This document shows, one piece after another, positions 1,863-3,825 of a stretch of DNA of 6,091 nucleotides. The notes below the pieces were generated by a model. That model worked only from the letters and a program-made list of their open reading frames with translations, was not told where the DNA came from and made no database searches. How positions within the stretch are numbered: position 1 is the first letter of the stretch; each line of letters starts with the position of its first letter. A program made the position numbers and the translations under genes. The stretch covers positions 1-6,091 of the forward strand of contig QQUD01001053.1 in the NCBI GenBank assembly GCA_008501785.1, in the 5' to 3' direction. This DNA is from Chloroflexota bacterium (GTDB taxonomy: Bacteria > Chloroflexota > Anaerolineae > Promineifilales > Promineifilaceae).

Positions 1863-2600
1863 TCAATATTGTGCAATCGCAGATTGTGAGTATTTATTAC
1901 TTGGTAACTGATCCCAATAACGATTTTGCAGCAAACGGCCGTTTTTTTTCTTCTGAACACCGCCCCATTGCTTAAAAAAGAAGGGGACATCTGCTGTAAT
2001 GCATTGCTCCCGAATATCAATTACCCATTGTTCTTTTATTGGACGAGAGCCGGGACCTGATTCTCCACCAGTAATGACCCAATCAATATTTACTAGGTTC
2101 AAGTCATTTAAAGGTCCCAGCAATGGTTCTAAAGACAAAAACTTAATTTTTGCTCCGGTTGCTCTTAAGTGATCAATACGATGAGTATATGCAGAATTTT
2201 CTACACTAACGCCCATCCACACGTTATCAGGCCAATTAAGTTCATCATTCAATTGCAGCAATCGTTCGGAACGTTTTGTCAAGACCTGAAACGTATGCCA
2301 AGAAGCTCGACGCATGACATCAAATACACGTTGAATGTAATCAAGTGGTACATTCTGATGAAATAAGTCACTCATTGAATTGACAAAGATTTGTTGAGGT
2401 TTCTTCCAGGTTAACGGCCGTTCCAACATATGTTCTTGCAAAGTAAGTTCAAATCCATTTACATAATTGGCTTGCCCCATCGCTTTCAAACGCTTTGCCA
2501 TCCGCTCCGCATAACAATTTTTACAACCGGGACTTACTTTCGTACACCCTGTAACAGGATTCCAAGTTGATTCTGTCCATTCAATTTTTGATGTAGCCAT
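1863..2600 (-). CDS. DUF5131 / phage Gp37-Gp68 family three-Cys-motif protein
   Basis: This is a 245-residue protein with ATG at 2600, preceded by a good ribosome site (AAGGTG, 2608-2613, seven bases from the start). It matches the DUF5131 (Gp37/Gp68) family throughout: [14 protein letters not shown] at the N-terminus, a cysteine cluster C19-X6-C26-X2-C29, then [10 protein letters not shown] (72-81), TFQVLTKR (103-110), VWMGVSVEN (127-135), LSLEPLLGP (155-163), [12 protein letters not shown] (176-187), FFFKQWGG (207-214) and the closing motif [13 protein letters not shown] (221-233). The cluster resembles the [4Fe-4S] site of radical-SAM enzymes, but with CX6CX2C instead of CX3CX2C; enzymatic activity is inferred. 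The gene lies 59 bp after tcmP on the same strand, the usual pairing for these families. A TGCTACAAT extended -10-like element (2643-2651) in that gap might give some independent expression. It appears intact. Despite the phage-derived family name, no phage genes surround it. Confidence 0.9.
1933..1944. repeat. AACGGCCGTT palindrome copy 3 (12 bp)
   Basis: AAACGGCCGTTT lies near the 3' end of the three-Cys protein gene. The minus strand reads AAC GGC CGT TTG (Asn-Gly-Arg-Leu), a codon phase different from copies 1, 4 and 5. It sits on the family's C-terminal GRxL motif. Confidence 0.8.
2413..2422. repeat. AACGGCCGTT palindrome copy 4 (10 bp)
   Basis: This copy lies inside the three-Cys protein gene. 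The minus strand reads GAA CGG CCG TTA (Glu-Arg-Pro-Leu), the third codon phase used among the copies. Confidence 0.75.
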
Positions 2601-2607
2601 ATTATTT

Positions 2608-2613
2608 CACCTT
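2608..2613 (-). promoter_or_regulatory. Ribosome binding site of the three-Cys protein gene
   Basis: The minus strand reads AAGGTG seven bases before ATG at 2600. It is a good Shine-Dalgarno match and fixes this start codon. Confidence 0.7.
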
Positions 2614-2659
2614 GAAAATAAGATTTGGTGATCTTCATGCACATTGTAGCACAGGGGTT

Positions 2660-3781
2660 CTAAAACAGTGACCGTTGTTTGGGAACTCGAGAAAGAAAAG
2701 TGATGATTACTTCATCTGGAAAAGAGTTTTTTCTGCGTTTATTTCCATCAGATTTCAGAGTTTGTACATAGATTTCCTTTTCTTTCTCAAGCAACCTCAA
2801 CGCTTTCGTTACATGTTTAGGTAAAAATGATGTTTTGTTTATCACAAAATCCCTAACTTGTTTGACTTGTACTTTCTGATTCATAAATTTATTTTGCAGC
2901 TCTTTTGCCAGAGTTTCTGACTCATCAAGCTCAAACAAGACTAATTGATTTGGATTTGTCGCATCCGAAAATCTCACTCCACTTGCCGAATCCACTTTCC
3001 AGAAAGCTTGTTTCATCCTTAGATGACCCAATGAATTATTTGTAGCAAAGAAGAGGTAGTAAATTGGTCTGTTTTTCGAGTTGCGCATTTCAAAATAACG
3101 CACAAATTGAGCATGTTTTTTGAGTTGTTCCTGATAGAGTAACCGCAAATCTTCTACCCTGCTTCCGCTATCCTGAGCAATTTTGAACACATCAGTTGTA
3201 CCAAATAGGTCACTGATATGTTGTCGTGTTACTTTATCAGGGTGTTCGAGGAAACGATTGATCGAATCCGCCATAATGTTGATAAAAACTTCAGTTCTTG
3301 GTTTCTTCAGTAGCTTTTGTACCAAGTCAAATGGGACTCCTTTGAAGCCAAAAGGATCAATAAAAGCAAATATAGGCGCTTTTTGAAATTCATCTTTATC
3401 AAAATTATTTAATAAGTCGCGAAATTCATGTTCAAATGCTCTGGCAACTGGTCTGATTTCAAAATTATCAGGTACTTCGATTTGCTCTAACTCGTCATTT
3501 AACTGCGATATTCTATCGGGTCTCTCGTCTACAAAATGGAAGATCAATCGATTTTTCTGTAAGCGATTTCTGTGTTTCTTTGCTTCCCTCAATGCGATAA
3601 TGGGTGACCCAACTTCACCACCATCATATCGTCCAGGACCACAAAAACCGTCAATATAAACGATGTTCTGAAAAGCTGTTCCGAGAATTGGAAACCATGC
3701 ACCCAAATATCGGCGCAAAATTTCATGTTTTGCCAGAGTATGCGGCTCAATTTCCCAAGTTGTTTTTTGAGGTGTTGACAC
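2660..3781 (-). CDS. tcmP: Three-Cys-motif partner protein TcmP
   Basis: I place the start at GTG 3781 (373 residues) because AAGGGG (3789-3794) sits seven bases upstream; a TTG at 3805 would add eight residues but has no ribosome site. The opening TTWEIEPHTLAKHEILRRYL is typical of TcmP. The N-terminal half looks like a Rossmann methyltransferase fold: IDGFCGPGRY (43-52) as the glycine-rich cofactor loop, GGEVGSP (54-60), acidic D85-E86 after the second strand, and FAFIDPFGFKG (138-148) where methyltransferases carry their strand-4 catalytic motif. INIMAD (167-172) and YYLFFATNNSLGHLRMKQ (241-258) are further conserved-looking blocks. Residues about 303-367, rich in Lys and Arg, fit a winged helix. 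I infer a nucleic-acid-acting enzyme or adaptor; activity is unproven for the family. It is followed by its named partner, the three-Cys protein. The gene is AT-rich (sampled lines 25-35% GC) compared with icmF, which suggests transfer. Confidence 0.88.
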   Translation of the reverse strand: MSTPQKTTWEIEPHTLAKHEILRRYLGAWFPILGTAFQNIVYIDGFCGPGRYDGGEVGSPIIALREAKKHRNRLQKNRLIFHFVDERPDRISQLNDELEQIEVPDNFEIRPVARAFEHEFRDLLNNFDKDEFQKAPIFAFIDPFGFKGVPFDLVQKLLKKPRTEVFINIMADSINRFLEHPDKVTRQHISDLFGTTDVFKIAQDSGSRVEDLRLLYQEQLKKHAQFVRYFEMRNSKNRPIYYLFFATNNSLGHLRMKQAFWKVDSASGVRFSDATNPNQLVLFELDESETLAKELQNKFMNQKVQVKQVRDFVINKTSFLPKHVTKALRLLEKEKEIYVQTLKSDGNKRRKNSFPDEVIITFLSRVPKQRSLF

Positions 3782-3788
3782 TTCTTTA

Positions 3789-3794
3789 CCCCTT
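3789..3794 (-). promoter_or_regulatory. Ribosome binding site supporting the GTG start of tcmP
   Basis: The minus strand reads AAGGGG seven bases before GTG at 3781. It lies inside the eight-residue extension that the upstream TTG would give, so it favours the shorter protein. Confidence 0.65.
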
Positions 3795-3825
3795 TTATCC
3801 CACAAACAAGAAACAATACGTTTCC

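Follow-up and report, generated by a model that had tools for sequence, protein, structure and literature searches.

The TcmP and DUF5131 families (TIGR04474 and PF07505) are an established gene pair, and the idea that they form a defense system is already known: PADLOC-DB 2.0.0 lists them as the candidate PDC-M30/M41. Here, we examine one such pair in a 6,091-nucleotide stretch from a Chloroflexota bacterium (contig QQUD01001053.1, hereafter the window), and read it as a unit made up of a methyltransferase and a radical enzyme, with DNA or RNA as the probable target and defense against viruses as the probable role. PDCs were identified through guilt-by-embedding, as stated in two reports (PMC10855318; PMC12988326). 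The first of these finds PDC-M30 in 32 of the 100 P. aeruginosa strains of a panel, 68.8% of the 32 being resistant, a correlation (PMC10855318). In S. meliloti, another study puts the TcmP gene SMa2243 near the Hna defense gene SMa2245, judged by locus tag, and reports a roughly twofold rise of both genes in a nolR+ strain (PMC12445080). The main text of the DefensePredictor paper (PMC13092281) makes no mention of TcmP, three-Cys, radical SAM or PDC. In the literature searched (subscription papers and preprints aside), we found no assigned function for the two families and no phage-protection experiment for PDC-M30.

As a member of this named pair, the window copy is unremarkable, and what we add is a functional reading. 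Its genes are adjacent and score 205 bits (TcmP) and 397 bits (DUF5131) against PDC-M30A and PDC-M30B; against the M41 models, DUF5131 reaches 412 bits with M41B and TcmP only 65 with M41A. An initial annotation had located two intact genes here, and both lie far above their family cut-offs: TcmP matches TIGR04474 with 220 bits (curated cut-off 53) and its partner matches PF07505 with 345 bits (cut-off 28.9). The motifs that it quoted are also real, namely IDGFCGPGRY (residues 43-52) and IDPFG (residues 141-145) in TcmP, and the CX6CX2C of C19/C26/C29 in DUF5131.

Probable enzyme classes of the two proteins

TcmP is very probably a methyltransferase of the type of RlmJ, the 23S rRNA A2030 N6-methyltransferase (PF04378). 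RlmJ is the top fold for TcmP by VIA, the AlphaFold2 model having a predicted local distance difference test score (pLDDT) of 90.5, and hhalign aligns the two proteins at an E-value of 2.5e-8 with the catalytic lysine and aspartate in register. The K18A variant of RlmJ is inactive (PMC3814359). Among 109 diverse TcmP proteins, K18 and D142 are present in all, and the surrounding motifs are nearly as constant (motif I: D44 in 107, G48 in 108, G50 in 104; motif IV: P143 and G145 in 106 each). These motifs and the fold match uphold the proposal of a methyltransferase-like core, with motifs for S-adenosylmethionine (SAM), and the suspected winged-helix tail is recovered as a match of residues 271-340 to PF22560 (GMT-wHTH; 38.3 bits, cut-off 27). 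PF04378 itself gave no match to TcmP up to an E-value of 1.

DUF5131 is, with high likelihood, a radical-SAM enzyme, as the initial annotation had suspected of its three-Cys protein. Spore photoproduct lyase (SPL) is the top-ranked fold for its predicted structure, which contains a partial beta/alpha barrel, and four DUF5131 homologues (L223, L215, L216, L214) carry a CX3CX2C motif in register with the CX6CX2C of the window protein. The LTK motif is invariant across five SPL-like proteins that stand in for DUF5131 beside TcmP (see below). SPL has a SAM-contacting lysine, which we did not use as evidence. The window protein scores 81 bits against TIGR04471, under the cut-off of 355, and PF20903 (SPL) gave zero matches among 116 DUF5131 proteins up to an E-value of 1. 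Because no profile match joins DUF5131 to SPL, the link rests on the fold, the CX3CX2C homologues and the exchange of partners. A divergent DUF5131 subfamily with a CX3CX11C motif lies tail-to-tail with the TcmP gene in three loci (L235:5576-6349, L236:6515-7306 and L237:5237-6052).

Pairing, fusions and exchange of partners

The two window queries retrieved 2,583 TcmP and at least 8,000 DUF5131 relatives. We examined 80 of the 149 TcmP genome loci found: DUF5131 lies within 300 bp of TcmP in 67 (31 with DUF5131 first, 29 with TcmP first and 7 convergent) and 520-660 bp away in 2. It is absent from the other 11, of which four end at a contig edge, one has TcmP split over two frames and one holds a fragment next to a transposase; in the remaining five, the next upstream gene encodes an SPL-matching protein with CX3CX2C (three above the Pfam cut-off, two below). 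The split gene, on a Roseiflexus contig, and the C-terminal fragment, by a Mu-like transposase, are signs of decay (L074, L077). Among 298 genomes from a single class, 42 have TcmP. After exclusion of two genomes with short weak matches (G114, G312), DUF5131 was seen within 471 bp of TcmP in 36 of the 40 inspected for neighbors; two others have a divergent SPL-like gene 11 bp from TcmP, one has a Radical_SAM/DUF5131-like protein, and one, where TcmP is below cut-off on a 3,350-bp contig, has no partner. These loci support the two-gene unit described in the initial annotation.

Gene order changes while adjacency persists: a quick tree of 104 pairs, drawn from genome and viral loci and selected for adjacency, implies at least 19 changes of arrangement. 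Co-divergence of the families is weakly indicated (Mantel r 0.29; 0 of 999 permutations as high), since distances saturate. In one genome, TcmP and DUF5131 share a single frame of 534 amino acids (L226), and 62 of 120 listed homologues of this protein (of 7,999, itself included) match both profiles, with DUF5131 first in 56 and TcmP first in 6, some TcmP parts being short. Another natural fusion, P0351, has 620 amino acids. Where the fused proteins align, the residues named above are retained (cysteines 60/60, K18 59/59, D142 60/60). Elsewhere, a fusion of DUF5131 and HsdM sits between TcmP and HsdS (L227), and TcmP abuts an N6-methylase gene on the same strand (L228). Two loci carry tandem pairs of TcmP genes beside one radical-SAM-like gene (L078:9980-12228, L232:5624-7645).

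TcmP and its radical-SAM partner therefore form, in all likelihood, one physical unit. Its radical-SAM half can be either DUF5131 or an SPL-like protein, the methyltransferase half being constant, and the unit can fuse to the methylase subunit of a type I restriction system. The fusions, the partner exchange and the place of the pair in temperate phages, between immunity genes and integrase, are stronger evidence than the initial annotation had. The relation to RlmJ, the fusions, the SPL-like exchange and the repressor-integrase location are unstated in the literature that we searched, and we make no claim to priority.

Phage location, proposed mechanism and rival explanations

TcmP occurs in 70 and DUF5131 in 407 of 72,556 plasmid records. 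All 12 phage records with TcmP are Gordonia phages, eight by name, and in the six that we examined both genes are profile-confirmed and lie between immunity genes and a tyrosine or serine integrase; in five of the six, TcmP directly follows the annotated repressor on the same strand. This position points to expression in the lysogen, not during lytic growth. Among neighbors of paired viral loci (109 of 110 analyzed), repressor and regulator families are the top matches (phrog_4, 9; phrog_8, 8). Four DUF5131 phages have no TcmP within 4-5 kb on either side (L190, L191, L192, L193), and in two of them DUF5131 is near DUF4326 (L190, L191). We considered DUF4326, which in two annotated phages is next to DUF5131 or two genes from it, as a second DUF5131 partner and then dropped it: phmmer searches with two DUF4326 and two other neighbor proteins, counting matches at any distance, touched only 2 of the 58 viral loci that are paired and 2 of the 22 that are not, and one of these four was matched by a non-DUF4326 protein.

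From the computed folds, motif conservation, pairing, fusions, partner exchange and phage location, we infer a cluster, a chemistry, an order of steps, a substrate and a defense role as follows. C19, C26 and C29 of DUF5131 would bind a [4Fe-4S] cluster; cleavage of SAM by this cluster would yield a 5'-deoxyadenosyl radical, and the radical would alter a carbon atom in a base or a sugar. TcmP would dock with DUF5131, grip the target by its winged helix and methylate an exocyclic amino group, using a second SAM as donor; K18 and D142 would be catalytic, as in RlmJ. The two enzymes would thus hypermodify nucleic acid sequentially, in one complex, and the modification would block an incoming phage in the cell or lysogen. 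The target is likely to be nucleic acid, and we lean toward DNA, with RNA some way behind and free nucleotides a minor prospect; the preference for DNA comes from SPL, the winged helix and the fusion with HsdM. An anti-phage role is somewhat favored, and the whole chain, a two-enzyme nucleic-acid-modifying module as mobile defense cargo, has an even chance. That the complex makes an undescribed base modification, combining a radical change with an N-methyl group, which prophages use for superinfection immunity, is a tentative and rather doubtful extension. Of the initial reading, the enzyme types and the unit are supported; its substrate (DNA, RNA or a nucleotide), its product and its role in defense are putative.

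Several results weigh against the proposed module. Foldseek alone ranks histamine methyltransferase first for TcmP and the RlmJ homologue 2oo3 fifth, with E. coli RlmJ absent from its top 50; Y4 and H6, in the motif X tail of RlmJ, fall outside the hhalign match and have no clear TcmP counterpart, and the DPPY of RlmJ reads DPFG in TcmP. A DPFG-type motif IV is found in Trm1, which we did not count as evidence. For DUF5131, Foldseek alone gave no match under 0.001, and an hhalign comparison with the five SPL-like partners gave no match either (probability 0.3). At the sensitivity used, 161 of 50,697 phage records match DUF5131 vs 12 for TcmP; DUF5131 lacks a detected TcmP in 22 of 80 viral loci, and three phages (L190, L192, L193) have replication or recombination genes no more than 5 kb from it. 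The search for defense genes around homologues, which the initial annotation had suggested, yielded no usable contrast: the 145 nearest neighbors matched 212 PADLOC families and 144 genes more than 6.5 kb away in the same 80 loci (drawn from 164, one of 145 far genes being left out) matched 208. We claim no enrichment, since the far genes used as control come from those very islands and no more than 25 families appear in the tables. Among the matches listed, 2 of 40 genomes have a DNA methylase gene less than 5 kb from TcmP; a few chance matches could give about as many, and we did not use this distance.

The pair could instead be directed at RNA, modifying tRNA, rRNA or mRNA in the manner of RlmJ or RlmN and controlling translation in infection or stress. 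TcmP, however, is without the helical subdomain of RlmJ and has a winged helix added, SPL, the top-ranked fold for DUF5131, is a DNA enzyme, a DUF5131-HsdM fusion exists, and presence in 42 of 298 genomes is patchy, unlike that of a housekeeping enzyme; we hold this version to be unlikely, though it is the strongest of the alternatives. A little less probable is self-protection, in which the modification shields phage, plasmid or island DNA from host restriction instead of attacking phage. The occurrence of the families on plasmids and in phages, and of DUF5131 near recombination or replication genes in some phages, would suit it, but the pair sits among immunity genes in six Gordonia phages, right after the repressor in five.

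The SPL resemblance raises the further idea of DNA repair, with SPL-like lesion reversal and a methyltransferase-like protein that merely binds DNA: SPL is the best fold for DUF5131, and SPL-like genes replace it beside TcmP. A mere binder would not need K18 and D142, invariant in 109 of 109 proteins, and the distribution is mobile and patchy, so that we regard repair as most improbable. Scarcely better placed is a viperin-like scheme, in which DUF5131 would convert a nucleotide to a chain terminator or signal and TcmP would methylate the product; the winged helix and RlmJ kinship of TcmP indicate polymer substrates, and SPL scores higher for the DUF5131 fold. The nucleic-acid-modifying module is the reading that we prefer. 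With it, two very common families of unassigned function gain named enzyme classes and named catalytic residues, which opens their function to mutation and nucleoside mass spectrometry tests; if the defense role is true, radical-SAM chemistry on nucleic acids would join the known ways of stopping phage.

The window locus and its closest known relatives

Features of the pair in the window (residues are those of the encoded protein)
Feature	Position	Strand	Remarks
tcmP gene	2660..3781	-	373 aa (amino acids), GTG start at 3781; very probably an RlmJ-like amino-methyltransferase, with C-terminal winged helix
TcmP A17-K18	3728..3733	-	K18 aligns with catalytic K of RlmJ motif X (hhalign register)
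TcmP motif I, IDGFCGPGRY, residues 43-52	3626..3655	-	putative SAM-binding loop
TcmP motif IV, DPFG	3347..3358	-	D142 in register with the catalytic D164 of RlmJ
TcmP winged helix-turn-helix, residues 271-340	2762..2971	-	PF22560; helices in AlphaFold2 model
AAAGGGG 5' of tcmP, ribosome-binding-site-like	3789..3795	-	read off sequence
DUF5131 gene (PF07505)	1863..2600	-	245 aa, ATG start at 2600; predicted radical-SAM enzyme
CX6CX2C, C19/C26/C29, candidate cluster motif	2514..2546	-	invariant in 116/116 DUF5131
LTKR, residues 107-110	2271..2282	-	K109 and R110 in 116/116; LTK also in SPL-like partners
AAGGTG 5' of DUF5131 gene, ribosome-binding-site-like	2608..2613	-	read off sequence

The DUF5131 gene lies downstream of tcmP on the same strand after a gap of 59 bp, and the GTG start of tcmP falls on column 1 of an alignment of 120 sequences, a column with at least 90% conservation of M. 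The flanking genes are not defense genes and, as first described, are functionally unrelated to the pair: an IcmF-type mutase, whose C-terminal 735 amino acids are present in a frame open at the window edge and whose top NCBIfam match is under that family's cut-off, and a histidine kinase truncated by the other edge. The GC content of the pair (0.376 and 0.398) is below that of the mutase (0.516), the kinase (0.449) and five stretches around the nearest mutase relatives (0.53-0.56), and this AT-richness fits horizontal acquisition. These five relatives (73-79% identity) have no kinase or pair 3' within 1.5 to 14 kb and carry other genes there, so the insertion boundary of the pair is not readable.

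In two loci, roughly the final 55 bp of the IcmF gene recur as a near-copy (L210:3451-3507, L211:6911-6961), 0.7-1.0 kb downstream of IcmF. The small genes that separate the two resemble toxin-antitoxin genes by eye, as though the IcmF 3' end were an insertion hotspot in this clade; self-BLAST of the window found no such near-copy. A palindrome, AACGGCCGTT, occurs five times in the window (709, 1666, 1934, 2413, 3986), with two copies within the DUF5131 gene; 0.06 occurrences of its core, ACGGCCGT, are expected in the window from base composition. The core is abundant near three mutase relatives (9, 11 and 24 copies in 6-10.5 kb) and scarce near two others (0 and 2 copies in 16 kb).

Compared with the TcmP/DUF5131 family pair, the window pair is alike in families, adjacency and motifs, and no tested feature distinguishes it. 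TcmP shares its fold, motif I and catalytic lysine and aspartate with RlmJ, and differs in the missing helical subdomain, the altered motif IV, the extra winged helix and the unplaced Y4/H6. SPL and DUF5131 have in common a TK motif after the cysteines, which are spaced CX3CX2C in SPL vs CX6CX2C in DUF5131. As for viperin, DUF5131 matched no solved chain by sequence at any sensible E-value, and here the partner is TcmP. Radical SAM mobile pair protein A (TIGR04471) shows homology to DUF5131 along most of its length; its L214 representative is 29% identical to the window protein and neighbors another radical-SAM protein (PF04055, 70 bits), with no TcmP found in that 3.7-kb locus.
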